Made by a program: the position numbers and the translations under genes. A stretch of DNA of 29,258 bases from the IMG/VR virus record IMGVR_UViG_3300023174_000506, positions 1 through 29,258 of that record. One strand, written 5' to 3'. How positions within the stretch are numbered: position 1 is the first letter of the stretch; each line of letters opens with the position of its first letter. This DNA comes from a virus. The notes below the pieces were generated by a model. It was not told the DNA's origin. It worked only from the letters and a program-made list of their open reading frames with translations, and did no database searches. This document shows positions 17,624 to 24,834 of this stretch, in pieces.

Positions 17624-17999
17624 TTTGAGGTTTTTCCTTACGAAGTTTAGTCCCTACATTATGGCTCCCTAAAGCATCTTTAATCAAGTGCATACCCCAT
17701 TCTGCAGCGCATCCAGCATGCATAGCCAAGGTTACATAATAGTGCCCATACTTTTCTGTGTAGTCCGAAGGATTTGCAACGACTGCTAATTTAGCTAATG
17801 GGCTTAAGTTACTTTCAAACTCATCTTTAGCTAGGTTTACACCATCCCAAAAAACGGCATCTTCTGACCTAAGTATTTTTCTATTTCTACAGGAAGGGTA
17901 TACACACATGCAAATTTCGGTTTCACCTCTATACCCGTCAAACTCCCCTTTCTCCTCGTTTAATTTTCTACCTGCAGGTATACCTTCACTAAAGCTCAT
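17601..17999 (-). CDS. Unknown Cys/His-containing phage protein
   Basis: A 132-residue protein that I do not recognise. Visible features are a Cys-rich stretch 'EICMCVYPSCRNRK' (about 28-41) and a later 'MHAGCAAEWGMHLI' (about 93-106), which together could bind zinc. Lys/Arg-rich tails are present at the C-terminus. It is coupled by ATGA to the Cas4/RecB-like nuclease upstream and overlaps the HNH gene downstream, so it is likely co-translated with two nucleases. A DNA-binding accessory role is possible but unsupported by a named domain. Confidence 0.65.
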   Translation of the reverse strand: MSFSEGIPAGRKLNEEKGEFDGYRGETEICMCVYPSCRNRKILRSEDAVFWDGVNLAKDEFESNLSPLAKLAVVANPSDYTEKYGHYYVTLAMHAGCAAEWGMHLIKDALGSHNVGTKLRKEKPQNAIREQT

Positions 18000-18667
18000 T
18001 TGCGTCTCTCCTTATAGTTATGGCAAGTCTTGACGGGGCACCAACCGCATAACGGACCCGCTACTGCGTTCCATACACCTGTTTCTAGGGCTGTTTCAAG
18101 CCGTTCCAAGTCAAACCGCACATGTTCAAAGTAAGCTAATTTGTGTTGCGAATTGTGTTCTTTATTAACAAATTCATTGCTAACTACAAATATCAAAGCA
18201 GACTTAAGCGTTTTAAGTTCTGGGAAGTGAGCAAATACCGCACCTGCTAGTAAATCCAACTGTTTTAAGTCAGCGTACTTTGCATTCTTACTGCTCTTGT
18301 AATCCACTAGGTAGCCTTCATCGCCATTAACAATCAGCAAGTCAGCGATACCCCGATACCAAGCATCTTTATCGTAGAACCCACAAGGATTAAGTCTGCC
18401 ACCTTTATTAGATACACCTAGTTCAATCTCAGTATGCTTCTCACCTGGTATGTTCTTAAGCGCATCTACTGTCTCTTTAATAAACGCAAACTGAGGGGGT
18501 ATGGGTGTGCCATCTTTAATATAGTCTTCAGCAGCTTTGTGTAGCTCTTTGCCATATATTGTGGCTTCACTACCTTCGTCTTTGACATCCTTAGCTACCT
18601 TAAGATGGTAATACTTCTTCGGGCATTGTTGAAATGTTTTAAGACTGCTGTATGACCATGCTGGCAT
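17996..18667 (-). CDS. Cas4/RecB-like PD-(D/E)XK nuclease with probable Fe-S cluster
   Basis: A 223-residue nuclease. Catalytic signatures in order are 'GKELHKAAE' (H43), 'GIADLL' (D109), 'VDYKSSK' (D122, K124) and 'LKQLDLLAGA' (Q136). This is the H-D-DxK-Q order of the RecB/PDDEXK_1 group. Four cysteines, C15 and C207, C210, C215 ('CGWCPVKTC'), reproduce the one-plus-three layout of Cas4 and AddB Fe-S cluster nucleases. It probably acts as an exonuclease on DNA ends in recombination or host DNA degradation. A TTG at 18679 is possible, but the ATG at 18667 has GGAAG 5 bases upstream and begins just after the previous stop. No CRISPR or cas1/cas2 gene is in the window. Confidence 0.88.
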   Translation of the reverse strand: MPAWSYSSLKTFQQCPKKYYHLKVAKDVKDEGSEATIYGKELHKAAEDYIKDGTPIPPQFAFIKETVDALKNIPGEKHTEIELGVSNKGGRLNPCGFYDKDAWYRGIADLLIVNGDEGYLVDYKSSKNAKYADLKQLDLLAGAVFAHFPELKTLKSALIFVVSNEFVNKEHNSQHKLAYFEHVRFDLERLETALETGVWNAVAGPLCGWCPVKTCHNYKERRK

Positions 18668-18668
18668 A

Positions 18669-18929
18669 TTATCTTCCAAATCTTGGCAAGCAAGTTACAT
18701 CGACAGGAACATCAGATAAGTAGCCATTAATCTTGCGTCTAGACATAATGACGGATGGTCTAAGCCCGCTAGATTCGCACTCTTGAACCGCCAAAATTAC
18801 TTGGCTTCGGCTCATCTGTGGAAGTTCTTTTTCCACCATAAGTTTTGTCTCGGGTATGTTTGATGTATCTAAGTGGGATGAGGAGCATGCTCCTAACAAT
18901 CCACACATTAACAACGCTAGTTTTTTCAT
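18669..18929 (-). CDS. Small phage lipoprotein
   Basis: An 86-residue protein with a lipoprotein signal peptide. It has a basic start MKK, a hydrophobic core, and lipobox L-G-A-C with C15 as the lipidated residue. Ser at +2 predicts outer-membrane sorting in a Gram-negative cell. The mature part (about 71 residues) contains two further Cys residues (C51, C80), possibly a disulfide, and a beta-like 'SVIMSRRKINGYLSDVPVDVTC'-type region. It is not Pro-rich, so it does not look like an Rz1 spanin. It is coupled by ATGA to the zinc-ribbon gene and directly precedes the nuclease. Early expression of an outer-membrane lipoprotein would fit superinfection exclusion, but that is inference. Confidence 0.78.
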   Translation of the reverse strand: MKKLALLMCGLLGACSSSHLDTSNIPETKLMVEKELPQMSRSQVILAVQECESSGLRPSVIMSRRKINGYLSDVPVDVTCLPRFGR

Positions 18930-19301: not shown

Positions 19302-19554
19302 TTATACCCGCCTCTCTTAATTTACTTCGTAGCCGTTGGCATTCAGCTTGCACCGTATTTAACTGTTCGGTAACTATATGTAACTGATGCCGTAGCATTT
19401 CTTCTGTATCTTCTTTATCTTGTATCGACACCAACCCAGCAAAAGGTATTGGCTCTACTGTAATAACAGCATCTTCATAACCTGGATGGTATGGTGCTTC
19501 TTCTACTTTTTTGCGATAGGCTTCGTTTTTATCATCTGTTGTAAATGTTGTCAT
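19294..19554 (-). CDS. Small acidic protein with C-terminal coiled coil
   Basis: An 86-residue protein that I do not recognise. Residues about 1-45 are acidic and probably extended; about 48-83 form a Glu/Gln/Leu-rich coiled coil ('EEMLRHQLHIVTEQLNTVQA'). The ATG overlaps the stop of the FkbM methyltransferase gene (ATGA), so it is probably translated by coupling with it. The coiled coil suggests oligomerisation. Confidence 0.62.
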   Translation of the reverse strand: MTTFTTDDKNEAYRKKVEEAPYHPGYEDAVITVEPIPFAGLVSIQDKEDTEEMLRHQLHIVTEQLNTVQAECQRLRSKLREAGIND

Positions 19555-20273
19555 TTAGTACCCCCATATGTAGCTAAGTTATTTTGTCCTAACTGTTGTA
19601 TCTTATAGCCGTGACCTTCTAGGTATTCAAGCAGTGCTTTACGCTTAGGTTCAAACCATGGCTTCCATGTCCATGCTTCAAAAATAATTGGTGGGTAGTT
19701 GTTCTTCTTGATGGTTTTAATACCGCCTTTAATTACTTCTAATTCATGCCCCTCTACGTCAATCTTAATAAGACGTACGTTTTGATGCGCACCTGAGTCC
19801 AAAGTAAACACCACCAATGGTTCTTTAACCCCCTCGGTTGTACACTCGTACTCATTCTCACGAACCTCTTTATCCATACTAAATGCACCAATATTACCCT
19901 CGGCTGTATAGTCAGGCATTACAAGCACTAGCCGTTCTTCTTTGTCCGATAGTCCAAAGTTATGGCAATGAATATTATCTAGCCCATTAATGAACGTATT
20001 GGCACATAGCTGGTAATAGACTATCCGTTGTGGCTCAAAGGCATGGTAAAGATGCTTCGGCACTTTCTTAGCCAAGGGTACACAGAACGTACCCAAATTA
20101 GCCCCAATGTCTAGCACCTCACCTTCGGGTGCATCCATTAATAACTTAAGGCTTAGTTGATGTATGTCGTTCTCGTACAGTTCTTGTTTTAAATGGGTTG
20201 ATATTAAGTCTTGCCCTTTGAACACAAGAAATTGTGTGCCGTCTACTTTTACTAGTTCGCAATTAGGTAACAT
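19551..20273 (-). CDS. FkbM-family SAM-dependent methyltransferase
   Basis: A 240-residue enzyme. The SAM-binding motif I is 'LDIGANLGTF' (54-63). The acidic loop 'AFEP' (78-81) and the hallmark 'LIKIDVEGHELEVIKGG' (168-184) follow, which together define the FkbM family. Family members O-methylate sugars or small molecules. It sits 1 base downstream of a glycosyltransferase gene, so the two probably act on one glycan, for example decorating a virion protein, host surface sugar or modified DNA base. Which of these applies cannot be read from the sequence. No truncation is visible; the length is normal for a stand-alone FkbM domain. Confidence 0.88.
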   Translation of the reverse strand: MLPNCELVKVDGTQFLVFKGQDLISTHLKQELYENDIHQLSLKLLMDAPEGEVLDIGANLGTFCVPLAKKVPKHLYHAFEPQRIVYYQLCANTFINGLDNIHCHNFGLSDKEERLVLVMPDYTAEGNIGAFSMDKEVRENEYECTTEGVKEPLVVFTLDSGAHQNVRLIKIDVEGHELEVIKGGIKTIKKNNYPPIIFEAWTWKPWFEPKRKALLEYLEGHGYKIQQLGQNNLATYGGTK

Positions 20274-20274
20274 C

Positions 20275-21048
20275 TTATGCCCTCGGTAAAGTACCGCTAA
20301 AGTTATACGTACCGCTATGAGTTAGGTTTGCCCAAGGCGCCGCATATACTTTGAAGCCTGCTTTGCGAGCAATCTTGCAGAAGTGGTAATCCTCTGATAG
20401 CAGTCGGTTTGTATCCTCATCAATACTGGTATCAAAGAACTCGCTAATGATTTTCTTTACTGGGTTCTTGTCTACGATGAGGATCATGTCGTTGGTATAG
20501 GTTGGTACTAATGGTTTTAATGTCTCAAACACATTGCGCTTGATAAGCATAAAGCCTGTACCGCCGTTGTCAATCTCCATAGGTTCGTTGATATTGCCCG
20601 TGCTTTCCATTGCACCGCCTACTAAGTTCACCACGAAAGAGCCTGTGTAATTACCCAAATCTTTATAGTCCACACCCCGCTTGACCGCATCATGTACTAA
20701 CTGCCAGTTAATTTCTTTTTTGGGATATAGACCACAAATAATGTCTTTGTCAGCATCAATCATACGCACAATATCTTTTGGGTCAAAACTAATATCGGCA
20801 TCAATAAACATCAGATGTGTTGCGTCTGACTGCATGAAGTCATAAGCCATGCCGTTGCGAGCACGGGTAATTAAAGACTCATTCATCATGTACGAGTAAT
20901 ACATCTGAATACTTCGTGGCGAGAATGTTTGCACACAGTTAAGAATACCCATGGTGTAACCGCCTGTGCATAGCCCACCATACATCGGTGTAGCTACAAA
21001 TAATTTAGCGGGCTTTGGCGTTTCTATTGCTGATACGTTTTCTAACAT
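20275..21048 (-). CDS. GT-A-fold glycosyltransferase-like protein
   Basis: A 257-residue protein. A strand-loop start 'LFVATPMYGG' (16-24), the 'SLITRARN' segment (58-65), and the metal-binding DxD motif in 'LMFIDADISF' (D83, D85) mark a GT-A-like nucleotide-sugar transferase. A later 'NGGTGFMLIKRNVFE' (about 160-175) and 'SEDYHFCKIARKAGF' (about 218-232) match the acceptor-side motifs of this group. No membrane anchor is seen, so it is cytosolic. Good Shine-Dalgarno AAGGAG, 6 bases before ATG. It is immediately followed by the FkbM gene, which implies a shared glycan pathway. The donor sugar is unknown. Confidence 0.85.
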   Translation of the reverse strand: MLENVSAIETPKPAKLFVATPMYGGLCTGGYTMGILNCVQTFSPRSIQMYYSYMMNESLITRARNGMAYDFMQSDATHLMFIDADISFDPKDIVRMIDADKDIICGLYPKKEINWQLVHDAVKRGVDYKDLGNYTGSFVVNLVGGAMESTGNINEPMEIDNGGTGFMLIKRNVFETLKPLVPTYTNDMILIVDKNPVKKIISEFFDTSIDEDTNRLLSEDYHFCKIARKAGFKVYAAPWANLTHSGTYNFSGTLPRA

Positions 21049-21216
21049 TTATTGCTCCTTTTTAATTTGTTCATTTCTTGCCTGTTTAATCTCTTCCAAC
21101 ATCTTTTCCATCAGGTCTGCGCAATAACCCATAAAAGGAAATTTGGTTGTTCCATTAGCGACACTACGTGCCAGCCCAATAGTATTTTCAACTGTTCGTA
21201 TGCTCACCTTTCTCAT
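21049..21216 (-). CDS. 55-residue micro-protein (short ORF)
   Basis: Translated directly from the sequence: begins MRKVSIRTVENT, ends NEQIKKEQ, 55 residues, mixed hydrophobic and charged, helical C-terminus. Its ATG overlaps the stop of the 60-residue gene (ATGA), and its stop touches the ATG of the glycosyltransferase. Its 3' end carries the AAGGAG ribosome-binding site of the next gene. Function unknown. Support comes from exact packing between neighbours rather than homology. Confidence 0.6.
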   Translation of the reverse strand: MRKVSIRTVENTIGLARSVANGTTKFPFMGYCADLMEKMLEEIKQARNEQIKKEQ

Positions 21217-21235
21217 TTCTCACTCGCTTTCTTTA
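21213..21235. repeat. 23-bp direct repeat at micro-gene junction, copy 1
   Basis: Identical over 23 bases to 21392-21414. It covers the last codons (KKASEK), stop and next ATG of the 60-residue gene/55-residue gene junction. Confidence 0.9.
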
Positions 21236-21395
21236 TCTTTTCCCATTCAGCCTCTATGTATTCATCCGACAATGGCTTGGCAATTTTAATTGCTTTATTC
21301 AACATATCTTCTGTGACTGTGCAAGTCCATACATGATCGGTCTTATAAAAACGCATAACCAAAGTGCCGATAGGAAACTCCTTAAACGTGTTCAT
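21213..21395 (-). CDS. 60-residue micro-protein of unknown function
   Basis: A 60-residue protein. The N-terminal half is beta-like ('IGTLVMRFYKTDHVWTCTV'), the C-terminal half an acidic/basic helix ending KKASEK. The same KKASEK ending closes the 74-residue neighbour, and the DNA at both junctions is identical over 23 bases. It is coupled by ATGA on both sides. I do not recognise a family. Confidence 0.62.
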   Translation of the reverse strand: MNTFKEFPIGTLVMRFYKTDHVWTCTVTEDMLNKAIKIAKPLSDEYIEAEWEKIKKASEK

Positions 21396-21414
21396 TTCTC
21401 ACTCGCTTTCTTTA
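21392..21414. repeat. 23-bp direct repeat at micro-gene junction, copy 2
   Basis: Second copy of the 23-base repeat, at the 74-residue/60-residue gene junction, 179 bases from the first. The third junction (around 21613-21618) shares only the core AGAAATGA on the - strand. Confidence 0.9.
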
Positions 21415-21616
21415 GTATTGCTCTAGCAAAATCCCTAATTCCACCATTGTCAGCCTCAGTTTCTTTATACAGATTTACTATTTCCTCATCTGTTAGTGTC
21501 TTTGCTGGATGGGTGTAGAGTGGAAACCATTTAAAACCCTGTTTATCAACCTCAGGCTTTTCAAAAAAAGCAATAACACCATCTTCTCTAGCCCACGCTA
21601 TTGGTTCATTGTTCAT
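21392..21616 (-). CDS. 74-residue phage protein with 'PLYTHPAKTLTDEEI' motif
   Basis: A 74-residue protein. Starts 'MNNEPIAWAREDG', continues 'WFPLYTHPAKTLTDEEI' and ends in a helix with KKASEK. The 'EP-AW ... PLYTHP' pattern is widespread in small early proteins of many tailed phages and prophages; its function is unknown to me. Linked by ATGA overlaps to the membrane micro-protein upstream and the 60-residue gene downstream. Confidence 0.72.
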   Translation of the reverse strand: MNNEPIAWAREDGVIAFFEKPEVDKQGFKWFPLYTHPAKTLTDEEIVNLYKETEADNGGIRDFARAILKKASEK

Positions 21617-21786
21617 TTCTGAATCCTATTCCATAGTTCAGACAAGGGCATCCCTTTAATTTCTCTCCAGCCAATGTGTATACAAGCATACATAATGAAC
21701 AGGAAGAAAGCAAAGACCACGGCAAAGATCAGCACCGCACAGGTGGCTAAAAACAAGGCAAACATGTTAAGTATTGTGACGATCAT
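21613..21786 (-). CDS. 57-residue membrane micro-protein (short ORF)
   Basis: Translated directly: begins MIVTILNMFALFLATCAV, ends LSELWNRIQK; 57 residues. Residues about 2-38 are almost entirely hydrophobic, giving one long or two tightly packed transmembrane helices, followed by a charged cytosolic-type tail. It starts 2 bases after the stop of the 411-residue gene and overlaps the 74-residue gene by ATGA. A small early inner-membrane protein could be an exclusion, lysis-regulating or host-takeover factor; nothing decides between these. Confidence 0.65.
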   Translation of the reverse strand: MIVTILNMFALFLATCAVLIFAVVFAFFLFIMYACIHIGWREIKGMPLSELWNRIQK

Positions 21787-21788
21787 TT

Positions 21789-23024
21789 TTAAACTACCCT
21801 ATTTTCTTTGTAATTACCAACGGCATAGTCTTTGATAATCTTGCCGTTTTCTTCATCGCCCACTAGCATTGGGTCTATCCATACTTTCTTACCTGACTTT
21901 TTCATAGTCCGCCAATGACCTCGTCTCCAATGTAGTCGGGGTGATGCGTGTGTGCCATGTGGTATGGACGGCAACGCTGACTTTTTACCATCAACAGTAA
22001 TTAATCTAAATTCAATCAAAGGCTTCTTACCTTTGTTCATACGCTTTTTATTTACAGCAACTTCGTTAGGGGTAGGGGCGGATACGTACATATCACCACC
22101 CGCTATGGTTAGCATATAAATAGCAATAATTGCATGAGTTGTCATGCTTTCCATTGTGCTTTCTTTCGCTAACTCATAATTGTTTTTATTTGTTGAATTT
22201 AGTGGTCTAGATACTTTTAATTTGCCTTCTACAAAATGTAATACACAATGCGCTATATAATACTTATTTCCTACTTCGTTAGGTCTAGTAAACAAGGCAT
22301 GCACTGAAATGTATTCAGCATGTTGTATTAAGAAAAAAGAGTAGAGCAAATTAACTGTTCCGTCTTGTTCCGTCATGGTTGTGGGGTAGTCGTAGTTTGG
22401 GTCGTCATCTACTTTTTCTCCCGATATTATTGTTATTTTTGGAAATGGGAGACGCAACTCACCTAGCGCCTCAATTTCTTTTACGGCTGTTTCATATGTT
22501 AAGTCCTCAACAAACTTACGCTCAACAATCACTTTTGGATACTCAAGAATGCAGTCAATAATTTCTTGAGCTTTACCCTTGTGGTCGTTAGTATAAATAT
22601 CAAAGCATTTACCTTCTTGCGCTAACTTAACATAGTCAGTAAACGCATTTAGCATTTTGCTTTTTATTTCAGGATTTTCAATTGCACTTTTGACGTTGGG
22701 GTATAGCTGGTCAGTAAAACCAATTGACGCAACGGGGTATAGTTTGCTACTGTCTTTTTGTTTAAGACTTTTAATTGCGTTTTCAGTACCTCTAGTTACA
22801 GAACGAAATTTATTCCGAAATTCTTTTGCGTGTTTTTTATCTTTTGGCTCCGAGACTAATTTTGCTATATCTTCGTAGCTAAACGTACCCTCCACCCCAT
22901 CACTATTTTTAAGGTGAAATGAACCATCGGGCATTCTAGTAGACTCAATAACACGTCCATCAGGAGAACGAATAGCTAATTCGTTTTCAGTTTTTTTCAG
23001 TATCTCTGGTTTAGCATTCTCCAT
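21789..23024 (-). CDS. 411-residue orphan protein with HWRRGHWR C-terminal motif
   Basis: The N-terminus has short beta repeats ('SPDGRVIESTRMPDGSFHL', about 19-37). The middle (about 60-330) is mixed alpha/beta with no motif I can name. The C-terminus carries 'HASPRLHWRRGHWRTM' and 'GKKVWIDPMLVGD', a His/Arg/Trp-rich signature that I recall from various phage and mobile-element proteins of unknown function, and which may bind nucleic acid or metal. The start overlaps the polymerase stop by 14 bases, with a good GGGAG Shine-Dalgarno 6 bases before ATG. It is the only large gene between PolA and the micro-gene chain, and its function is unassigned. Confidence 0.78.
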   Translation of the reverse strand: MENAKPEILKKTENELAIRSPDGRVIESTRMPDGSFHLKNSDGVEGTFSYEDIAKLVSEPKDKKHAKEFRNKFRSVTRGTENAIKSLKQKDSSKLYPVASIGFTDQLYPNVKSAIENPEIKSKMLNAFTDYVKLAQEGKCFDIYTNDHKGKAQEIIDCILEYPKVIVERKFVEDLTYETAVKEIEALGELRLPFPKITIISGEKVDDDPNYDYPTTMTEQDGTVNLLYSFFLIQHAEYISVHALFTRPNEVGNKYYIAHCVLHFVEGKLKVSRPLNSTNKNNYELAKESTMESMTTHAIIAIYMLTIAGGDMYVSAPTPNEVAVNKKRMNKGKKPLIEFRLITVDGKKSALPSIPHGTHASPRLHWRRGHWRTMKKSGKKVWIDPMLVGDEENGKIIKDYAVGNYKENRVV

Positions 23025-24834
23025 AGCTTCTCCCTATTCCTGACTCGCAACTTAACGGCAAGTCCTGCGCCCACTTGGGTCGCATCTTCATACACATCTC
23101 TACATACTCTTGCCCTGTCTCTGCCTCTTGCTCAGGTATTACGCAAGCAATCGCATCATGCACAGTCATCACTACTTTGTATTTCTTTGCCACTTGCAAC
23201 ATCTGCTCACCAATGATGATTCGGGCTAACGCTTGGCAGACGTTCTCAATAACTTTACCGCCGTATATCCTATTAGGTACAACCGCCTTACCCTTCTTGG
23301 TGTCGTAGACATACTCGTCTTTGCCCTGCTCGTTACGCATTTTGCGTAGGTTGGGGTACTTTACATACAATCCGTTTGGTAGGCGAATGCCTTTTCTGCC
23401 TTCTACTTCAAGGACTCCTGTTTTACCTAGTGGTGCACTTTGGTTGTTAATGATTGCATCTAGTGCTTTCCCTGCTTGATTCCATAACTGCGGGATCCAG
23501 TCGTAAGTCTGCCGATAGACCTTGATAATACGAGTGGCTTCCTCTTCTTCAATCTCCACATTAAACGTCTTGAGCTGTGTTTTGAATTTCGTGCTCCCCA
23601 TGCCGTAGCCACACCCCAATATAGTCGTTTTGCCAACGAACCTTTCGTCCTTGCTAATTTCTTCAGTTGCCTTGTTATATATAGACGACGCCATGATTCT
23701 GTATACATCTTCGCCCCTTTCAAACGCATTCACTAAATCATTCTGTTCAGCCAGCCACGCTAGAGTTCTTGCTTCTATTTGACTAGAGTCAGAGTCCACA
23801 ACGACGTGTCCAGGCGGAGCCATAATCGCATCTTTGAGGATTGAGCCTCGTGGTAGGTTTTGCAGGTTGACCTTGTCGTCACCGCCCCAACGACCTGTAT
23901 GAGCCGCATAGTAGCGTAGTGGTATGGGGAATAAGCCTCGCTGCGCTATCTCAATAAAGCGTTCAGTCCTTGTTTCTTCAATGGTTGACTTCACTCCTAA
24001 GCGCGCTGATGCTAACGCTTGCACCACTTCGTTTTCATGCTCAAGTAGTTCTTTGAACCCTTCGTCAGTCTTAGCAAATGCCCATGCTTCTTTACCTGTC
24101 GTAGCACTAATCTTGCGTGGGGGTTCTATACCCTGCGCTATGAGCAACTCAGCAAACTTGTCATTGCTCATCAATAATTCTTTTTCTTTCTCGATGCTAG
24201 CTAGCAGACTTTCTTTTCTCTGCCGTACTACACCCAAGTGGTCGTGTAGCAGATTGCCATCAAGCCATAGGCTAGGCTCGGAGAACATACGGATAGTCAG
24301 GTCGATAAGCCGTAACTCACTAGGAGGAAAGCCTGCACTTAGCTTCTCAAACAAACCCATCGTAAGCACCACGTCGTTTTTGCAATACTCGCCGTACTGT
24401 GCCAAGTCCTGTGCATTAAAGTCAATCCGACGTTTGCCCTGTGCCTGTAAGACTTCTGTGCCTTTTACCCCTAGTTCGTAGTGTTCAGCCAAGGCTTTTA
24501 AACTGACACTAACTTCAGTCCCATGTATGGCTCTCGCCATTGATAGCGTATCAGCAATGCCCTTGGGTCTTATATCAAACTGCCAATTAAGAATAGCCAT
24601 ATCAAACATAGCGTTATGGGCTATCACTAAATGCTTGTCGAGTTCAAAGCTATCCAAGAACTTCTTTGTATCTGCTTTAGTACCGCTAAACCACTGAGGA
24701 CCGGCACCTTGTTCGCACACCGCCACCCCAATCGTTTCAAACTCAGGGCTACGGACATACTCTTCCGTGGTAATTTTGCTAAGGGAGAAGGTTTGAGAGT
24801 AGTAGGTCTCAAAGTCCAAACAAAAAATTTTCAT
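23011..24834 (-). CDS. Family A DNA polymerase with 3'-5' proofreading exonuclease
   Basis: A 607-residue replicative polymerase. Exonuclease motifs: ExoI 'DFET' (D7, E9), ExoII 'HNAMFD' (N74, D78), ExoIII 'YCKND' (Y150, D154). Polymerase motif A is 'DSDSSQIEAR' (catalytic D349, E354). Motif B (O-helix) is R398-x3-K402 to Y410-G411, and motif C is 'TVHDA' (D560). No 5'-3' exonuclease domain is present, as is usual for phage enzymes. By alignment of the O-helix to E. coli Pol I, position 762 (Phe there, Tyr in T7) is Leu (L406). Motif C has Ala where the VHDE glutamate normally sits. It would copy the phage genome together with the primase-helicase. Coupled by ATGA to the 142-residue gene upstream. 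Confidence 0.96.
   Translation of the reverse strand: MKIFCLDFETYYSQTFSLSKITTEEYVRSPEFETIGVAVCEQGAGPQWFSGTKADTKKFLDSFELDKHLVIAHNAMFDMAILNWQFDIRPKGIADTLSMARAIHGTEVSVSLKALAEHYELGVKGTEVLQAQGKRRIDFNAQDLAQYGEYCKNDVVLTMGLFEKLSAGFPPSELRLIDLTIRMFSEPSLWLDGNLLHDHLGVVRQRKESLLASIEKEKELLMSNDKFAELLIAQGIEPPRKISATTGKEAWAFAKTDEGFKELLEHENEVVQALASARLGVKSTIEETRTERFIEIAQRGLFPIPLRYYAAHTGRWGGDDKVNLQNLPRGSILKDAIMAPPGHVVVDSDSSQIEARTLAWLAEQNDLVNAFERGEDVYRIMASSIYNKATEEISKDERFVGKTTILGCGYGMGSTKFKTQLKTFNVEIEEEEATRIIKVYRQTYDWIPQLWNQAGKALDAIINNQSAPLGKTGVLEVEGRKGIRLPNGLYVKYPNLRKMRNEQGKDEYVYDTKKGKAVVPNRIYGGKVIENVCQALARIIIGEQMLQVAKKYKVVMTVHDAIACVIPEQEAETGQEYVEMCMKMRPKWAQDLPLSCESGIGRSYGEC

Follow-up and report, generated by a model that had tools for sequence, protein, structure and literature searches.

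A chain of small viral genes whose stop-start overlaps probably serve as joints for cassette exchange

It is a long-standing question whether phages swap accessory genes without breaking them through random breaks and selection, or through joints that the exchanged genes have in common. The locus described here bears on that question. In a 29,258-nt stretch of viral DNA (IMG/VR record IMGVR_UViG_3300023174_000506; hereafter the window), four small genes follow one another with overlapping stop and start codons, and identical DNA recurs at their junctions. A sequence-only reading of the locus had proposed that small genes are swapped there by recombination at a conserved stop-start joint. We compared the genes, their order and the DNA at their junctions with those of other viral contigs.

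RESULTS

The gene chain and its joint words

The four open reading frames (ORFs) of 57, 74, 60 and 55 codons that the sequence-only reading described are all present on the minus strand, chained by three ATGA stop/start overlaps (Table 1). The predicted product of m57 has a single long hydrophobic stretch. The p74 family is marked by PxAW at its N terminus, a central LTDEEI and a C-terminal FARAILKKASEK, and its relatives are encoded in at least 507 of at least 599 candidate stretches; 22 relatives were found for p60 and 80 for p55. On the upstream side of p55 there were 48 nonredundant ATGA joints with 25 upstream families, and 14 of the 48 had no AGAA. The fourth boundary, from p55 to a glycosyltransferase-like gene, is a TAA followed immediately by ATG.

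The 23-base repeat reported for the p74 and p60 junctions is exact (TAAAGAAAGCGAGTGAGAAATGA); an analytic calculation from base composition puts the chance expectation for same-strand 23-mer pairs at about 1e-5 across the window and at 7e-9 for a stretch of 738 bp. This joint word, J1, reads ...AAAGAAAGCGAGTGAGAA and then ATGA, coding for KKASEK-stop/Met. The third junction, between m57 and p74, does carry AGAAATGA (21613-21620), 8 nt in common with J1, as had been noticed; this is weak if taken alone, because AGAA precedes ATGA in 196 of 2473 other ATGA joints (8%). A fourth copy of AGAAATGA in the chain, overlooked earlier, lies inside the p55 gene.

Table 1. Positions of the chain genes, their joint words and neighboring genes in the window
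Feature	Position	Strand	Remarks
PD-(D/E)XK exonuclease	17996..18679	-	PF12705, E 3e-13; phrog_69, E 5e-23; right edge of variable interval
Glycosyltransferase-like gene	20275..21048	-	PHROG 1574; sub-threshold Pfam Anp1; adjoins chain
p55, 55-aa cassette	21049..21216	-	ORF; predicted helical hairpin
Internal AGAAATGA	21071..21078	-	Within 3' end of p55 gene, out of frame with p55
J1 copy 2	21213..21235	-	p60 3' end and p55 start; 23-nt exact repeat
p60, 60-aa cassette	21213..21395	-	ORF
J1 copy 1	21392..21414	-	p74 3' end and p60 start; 23-nt exact repeat
p74, 74-aa cassette	21392..21616	-	ORF
J3 (GGATTCAGAAATGA)	21613..21626	-	m57 3' end and p74 start
m57, 57-aa membrane-protein cassette	21613..21786	-	ORF
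DNA polymerase I-like gene (PolA)	23011..24834	-	Left edge of variable interval

The chain sits amid replication genes (PolA, exonuclease and helicase) in a record that is a 29-kb fragment. Between PolA and the chain lies a 411-aa gene (21789-23024) with a weak match to PHROG 10678, found in just 4 of 80 PolA relatives. The glycosyltransferase-like gene occurs in varied contexts, with a 96% identical copy in locus L357 and a 91% identical copy in L364, where PolA is 58% and 60% identical, respectively, to that of the window. Part of this gene (20372-21006) shows DNA likeness, in short pieces of 66-82% identity, to three Manatee Spring phage records. It is adjoined by an FkbM-type methyltransferase gene (19551-20273), and both recur near cassettes in L357 and L364.

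Gene content and order among relatives

The same four genes in the same order were not found in all relatives. At E values up to 1e-4, m57, p74, p60 and p55 were detected in 3, 1, 0 and 2, respectively, of 80 PolA relatives, many of which are short contigs; at 1e-2, p74 was detected in 2 of the 80. The interval from PolA to the exonuclease ranged from 4 to 4507 bp across the 57 loci with both ends visible. A conserved operon is ruled out by this variable gene content together with the variable order of the genes. The order was 57-60-..-74-55 in L282, 57-74-55-60 in L284 and L303, and 57-55 in L288, L301, L313 and L357, while L364 has 57-60, with p74 missing between m57 and p60. Where p74 is present in the reordered contigs, it is another member of its family (40-50% identity); m57, p60 and p55 are 77-98% identical to their counterparts. 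Locus L359 keeps the window's gene order, with p60 98%, m57 93%, p55 90% and p74 50% identical; its gene block is placed after the exonuclease, and its PolA is 59% identical to that of the window. Phages with a PolA just about 60% identical carry three of the four chain genes with 88-98% identity at the protein level.

The proteins themselves vary in their ends. Relatives of p60 finish in KKASEK, RKAQEK, GKAQEK or unrelated residues. In-frame fusions join p55 to a p74-type C terminus (L307 and L309, from 4001) and, in L356 (from 162), to a protein that resembles HNH94 of the window; p55 is also fused to the C terminus of another small family (L324, from 2954). These p55 fusions amount to shuffling below the level of the gene.

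Breakpoints and indels at the joints

Breakpoints were checked against the repeat, and they fall on the joint in the cases aligned base by base. At the joints of L301, L288 and L364, a close match to the left partner in the window extends as far as AGAAATGA, and a close match to the right partner begins there. The pair L308/L313, with 99.2% identity over 3640 bp, differs at AGAAATGA by roughly 350 bp of inserted DNA that includes one small gene or more. Copies of J1 edge a 625-bp insertion (L199/L101), and copies of a sister joint, J2, edge one of 461 bp (L274/L162). In one case, L108, J1 leads into the glycosyltransferase leader, and the join lies at the AGAAATGA inside p55, where there is no gene boundary. 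With gene orders permuted and the aligned breakpoints lying on the joint, the proposal that small genes are swapped by recombination at a stop-start joint is well supported.

Indel junctions, counted pairwise and hence not independent events, gave a broader view. Among 278 dereplicated junctions at p55/p60 loci, ATGA was present in 66%, AGAAATGA in 56% and J1 or J2 within 20 nt in 22%, against null values of 9%, 1% and 1%, respectively; for AGAAATGA the largest of 200 null shifts reached 3%. The 38 junctions at PolA loci had ATGA in 37% versus a null of 5%, AGAAATGA in 3% (1/38) and J1/J2 within 20 nt in 0%. At loci collected by the J1 pattern (31 junctions), ATGA reached 48% versus 11% and AGAAATGA 13%, and J1/J2 lay within 20 nt in 10%, equal to the largest of 200 null shifts. 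Figures for J2-pattern loci (18 junctions) were 44% versus 9% for ATGA and 0% for both AGAAATGA and J1/J2 within 20 nt; the 9 junctions at p74 loci had ATGA in 67% versus 27% (largest null shift, also 67%), and AGAAATGA and J1/J2 each in 0%. Joint enrichment at indels is strong in the p55/p60 set only.

Distribution of J1 and J2

A scan of 2.9 million viral contigs found the J1 21-mer AAAGAAAGCGAGTGAGAAATG in at least 120 stretches; the reversed 21-mer, scanned as a control, occurred in none. The 80 matches listed came from 79 contigs of 4 to 202 kb and 66 metagenomes. Although the search pattern stopped at ATG, all 163 J1 copies, in 119 loci, continue as ATGA; near-identical contigs are included, and 148 of the 163 have distinct 100-nt contexts. 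In 141 copies, J1 closes an ORF of at least 30 aa with KKASEK-stop. A contig edge intervenes in 5, and in the other 17 the frame closes within 60 codons upstream, so that no ORF of that length ends there. Downstream, an ORF of at least 30 aa opens, or the contig runs out, in 151 of 163. Among the 80 matches listed for a degenerate KKASEK-like-stop/Met pattern (256 sequences), 91 of 117 copies had the exact J1 nucleotides, and therefore DNA, beyond the peptide alone, is common to the copies. The 17 out-of-gene copies, together with L108, argue that common DNA, and not gene ends, can guide joining.

J2 is AAGAAAGGCACAAGAGAA and codes for RKAQEK-stop. Among 2795 ATGA joints with distinct contexts, drawn from all loci then collected, the most frequent 18-mers preceding ATGA were J1 (129) and J2 (106), the J1 count being inflated by the J1-based scan and J2 being unsearched when it emerged. 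J2 is present in at least 120 stretches of the viral collection. The window's PolA was detected in 10 of 40 joint-bearing records, picked mainly for length, so the joints are found, as far as fragmentary records can tell, in phages whose replication genes differ. The 202-kb contig L106, seven times the length of the window, has four exact J1 copies in about 0.8 kb and no match to the window's PolA.

Unrelated genes on either side of the joints

Families were defined by clustering at 70% mutual coverage with tails trimmed; single-linkage clustering was dropped, as chimeric proteins merged into one giant family. By this measure, 143 clustered J1 joints brought together 90 upstream and 109 downstream families, and 139 J2 joints brought together 62 and 81. 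The J3 class, which is the m57 3' end, had one upstream and 12 downstream families in 33 joints. Upstream families seen at least twice had two or more partners in 19 of 19 cases at J1, 11 of 13 at J2 and 212 of 324 at other joints; the corresponding downstream figures were 19 of 21, 19 of 20 and 230 of 331. For J1 and J2 together versus other joints, the Fisher p value was 0.0005 upstream and 0.001 downstream, with joints that are not independent. Loci selected by protein alone gave 105 family pairs in 121 J2 joints and 11 pairs in 13 J1 joints.

In J1 pairs unrelated on both sides, DNA identity upstream of the joint fell from 0.92 through 0.64, 0.52, 0.45 and 0.35 to 0.31 between 15-18 and 46-60 nt, the last 14 nt being fixed as identical by the class definition, and just past ATGA it was about 0.3. 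Matches to the p74-type 3' end have a bimodal length: they are full length in 68 of 148 J1 joints and 18-26 nt long in 61 of the 80 others. This suggests that the p74-family 3' end (FARAIL-KKASEK) is the source of J1, with crossovers cutting it in different places. A FARAIL-like segment, as judged by a simple pattern, was missing from 83 of 148 proteins upstream of J1 and from 89 of 141 upstream of J2.

DISCUSSION

Probable exchange through shared joints

In our view the chain likely consists of single-gene cassettes from an accessory pool that is shuffled via short-homology recombination joints. Each cassette would span one stop/start joint to the next, and the joints would be short DNA words common to otherwise unrelated genes, namely J1 (about 18-35 nt), J2 and, as a minimum, AGAAATGA. 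Recombination within the common word would place one cassette's start behind the 3' end of a different cassette; the word would bring both stop and start, and an upstream gene that is in frame would gain a coded tail (KKASEK or RKAQEK). Joint DNA is conserved between unrelated genes, cassettes are present or absent and change places, and breakpoints lie on joints. Pairing or annealing of short homologies may drive the crossovers, beyond any later tolerance by selection, and the cassettes may provide accessory early functions.

The work could be done by a phage exonuclease with an annealing protein or by host pathways. A PD-(D/E)XK exonuclease was found in 32 of 41 records, these being the 40 joint-bearing records and the window's (31 over the cut-off), and that of the window is a candidate recombination partner. 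The annealing protein Erf was found in 12 of the 41 and missing from 29, and RecT was found in none; neither was found in the window's 29-kb record. AAA_24, a Sak4-type family, was matched in 6 of 41, below its cut-off. The window also has an endonuclease-like gene (phrog_93; sub-threshold VRR-NUC and Hjc).

In the excerpted text of PMC3945230, Red-beta is given a minimal efficient pairing segment of 23-27 bp and RecA one of 31-34 bp. J1, at 18-35 nt, overlaps this range and AGAAATGA is far below it; we therefore infer that annealing-type recombination would act at J1 and J2 and microhomology joining at AGAAATGA. Many exchanged joints have just 4-8 nt in common, too short for efficient homologous pairing.

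A bolder form of this model is doubtful, although we entertain it: J1 and J2 might be dedicated, spreading recombination adapters that allow whole genes to move as cassettes with no integrase involved. The words would have spread among phages differing greatly in genome size because any small gene that carries them becomes plug-compatible, and internal words such as LTDEEI and MLRQQAD segments would possibly build chimeric proteins as well.

Alternative explanations

Exchange by illegitimate recombination anywhere in the genome, with selection keeping intact genes so that joins gather at gene ends and the joints are by-products, is an unlikely account. It has general phage mosaicism on its side, together with the many breakpoints that overlap by 4-8 nt, the 43 of 278 with no overlap, the weak enrichment at indels outside the p55/p60 set and the 8% of other ATGA joints that AGAA precedes anyway. 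It leaves unexplained, however, why 18-35 nt of DNA should be identical, synonymous positions included, in the 3' ends of unrelated genes, and why identity should decay by degrees upstream of J1 and J2; it also fits poorly with L108, the one case joined at a AGAAATGA that is no gene end.

The joints might instead be conserved as a translation signal, for ribosome binding or stop-start coupling, or for the KKASEK tail, with no exchange through them. Every copy does span a start codon, and usually an ORF stop too, in the position of a ribosome-binding site. A Shine-Dalgarno core lay within 20 nt, however, in only 1 of 148 J1 and 5 of 141 J2 joints, versus 845 of the 1679 other joints whose two ORFs each reach 50 aa or more, a comparison in which the class definitions fix 14-15 of the 20 nt and make the counts nonindependent. 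Moreover, the same genes are served by J1, J2 and J3 in spite of their different sequences, exact codons are kept beyond what the peptide demands, and cassette exchange is observed directly. We judge a signal for translation only to be very unlikely because the core is absent and different joints serve the same genes. Since the joint words have no Shine-Dalgarno core, the genes downstream of J1 and J2 probably rely on stop-start coupling.

Integron gene cassettes are single-gene units with a fixed direction that are reordered and widely shared. A site-specific system of that kind, integron-like or resolvase-driven with J1 and J2 as recombinase sites, would account for short defined sites, single-gene cassettes and fixed orientation. 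Unlike in integrons, neither a recombinase nor a folded site was found here: there was no match to a tyrosine recombinase in the 40 joint-bearing records, which do not include the window's (control, 14 of 14 genomes), or to a serine recombinase in 41 records with the window's included, all of which may be fragments, and four folded joint stretches of 23-49 nt gave no stable hairpin. With 8-nt words also acting as breakpoints, we hold this to be extremely unlikely.

Misjoining of metagenome contigs at 21-mers is a negligible explanation even though the relatives with chain genes all come from uncultivated contigs, given the 79 contigs and 66 metagenomes among the J1 matches listed, the same 57/55 joint in contigs of four metagenomes (L288, L301, L313 and L357), the ORFs of at least 30 aa that end on 141 of 163 J1 copies, and 8-nt joins presumably too short to mislead an assembler.

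Relation to known systems

Exchange through shared joints has partial precedents, ATGA-linked small-gene chains and motif-guided shuffling being known already. The lambda nin region holds such a chain (Kroger and Hobom 1982, as cited in the excerpted text of PMC8022706), and it resembles the present one in its tightly packed small genes, early in lambda and possibly so here, its ATGA overlaps and its content that varies between related phages. The seven annotated ATGA-start genes of lambda from ren to Q, however, share at most 9 nt including ATGA, versus 23 nt here, and their starts have GGAG-like ribosome sites, which J1 and J2 do not; the common word described here falls within the 3' end of a coding sequence, and unrelated proteins gain a tail from it. 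In T4-like phages, promoter/stem-loop motifs (PeSLs) are reported to mediate modular shuffling (PMC4503421, in excerpt), likewise by means of a repeated short motif between genes. A PeSL is a composite promoter-terminator motif with a stem-loop, whereas J1 and J2 gave no stable hairpin in the stretches folded (23-49 nt) and lie inside overlapping coding sequence that leaves no intergenic space. The Start-Associated Sequence (SAS) of cluster K mycobacteriophages is a 13-bp AGGAG-containing motif like a ribosome site, for which a role in translation is proposed in the part of PMC3203893 cited here. It too is a short repeat at the start codons of different families, nearly always in one orientation, in the nonstructural half of the genome; unlike SAS, J1 and J2 as written have no AGGAG and mark exchange breakpoints.

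Titles and abstract openings, with subscription journals mostly outside their coverage, yielded no description of such joints. As far as the literature searched shows, the new feature is a long stretch of joint DNA that lies within coding ends, is common to dozens of unrelated genes in many phages and has breakpoints mapped to it. Such joints have been delimited to the single base, are present in over 100 stretches of viral contigs and can be altered synonymously, so that the question of random breaks or common joints becomes directly testable. The words can also be used as search tags, since a gene between two joints is a candidate accessory cassette, possibly a counter-defense one, that can be picked out with no knowledge of its own sequence.

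Protein function and possible hosts

The four chain proteins had no confident match in Pfam, PHROGs or PADLOC, and 25 p55 relatives compared with NCBIfam, Pfam and PHROGs gave stray weak matches only. A fold model of p60 (pLDDT 74) found no useful match. Structure models of p55 had pLDDT values of 83 (the best, which was used), 69, 67, 65 and 62. In a Foldseek search of the PDB, Tad1 chains took ranks 1-16, with a nonsignificant best E value of just 0.35, and VIA aligned p55 with Tad1 at Z 7.7, ahead of the first unrelated row by 1.4, and an rmsd of 2.6 across 54 residues; the tool warns that Z values under about 13 are common for helical models. In a viral structure library the first nine matches were not named Tad1, and the Acb2/Tad1 hairpin appeared at ranks 10 and 39 (E values of 1.3 and 3.0). 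By sequence, 24 of 25 p55 members had no Pfam match at E values up to 1 and one matched another family, and a PDB profile search returned no Tad1 chain at E values up to 10. Tad1 is described in the excerpted text of PMC12043709 as having an N-terminal beta-sheet that precedes two long helices, and that sheet is missing from the p55 model. The modeled p55 thus weakly resembles the Acb2/Tad1 hairpin by fold only, a lead toward Tad1, an anti-Thoeris/CBASS sponge, and the sole lead for the possible host-takeover or anti-defense role that the sequence-only reading had suggested for genes at this site.

Among cultured phages there was no match to p55 and no full copy of a 39-nt joint query, which gave just 4 weak partial matches. 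In prokaryote genomes (84,980 species, one genome each; contigs of at least 3,000 bases) the 22-mer occurred in 2 contigs, L381 and L382, and an origin of the joint in host genomes was rejected, as both look phage-like. These contigs belong to Chitinophagaceae and Methylococcales MAGs, respectively, and L382 might point to a methanotroph host.
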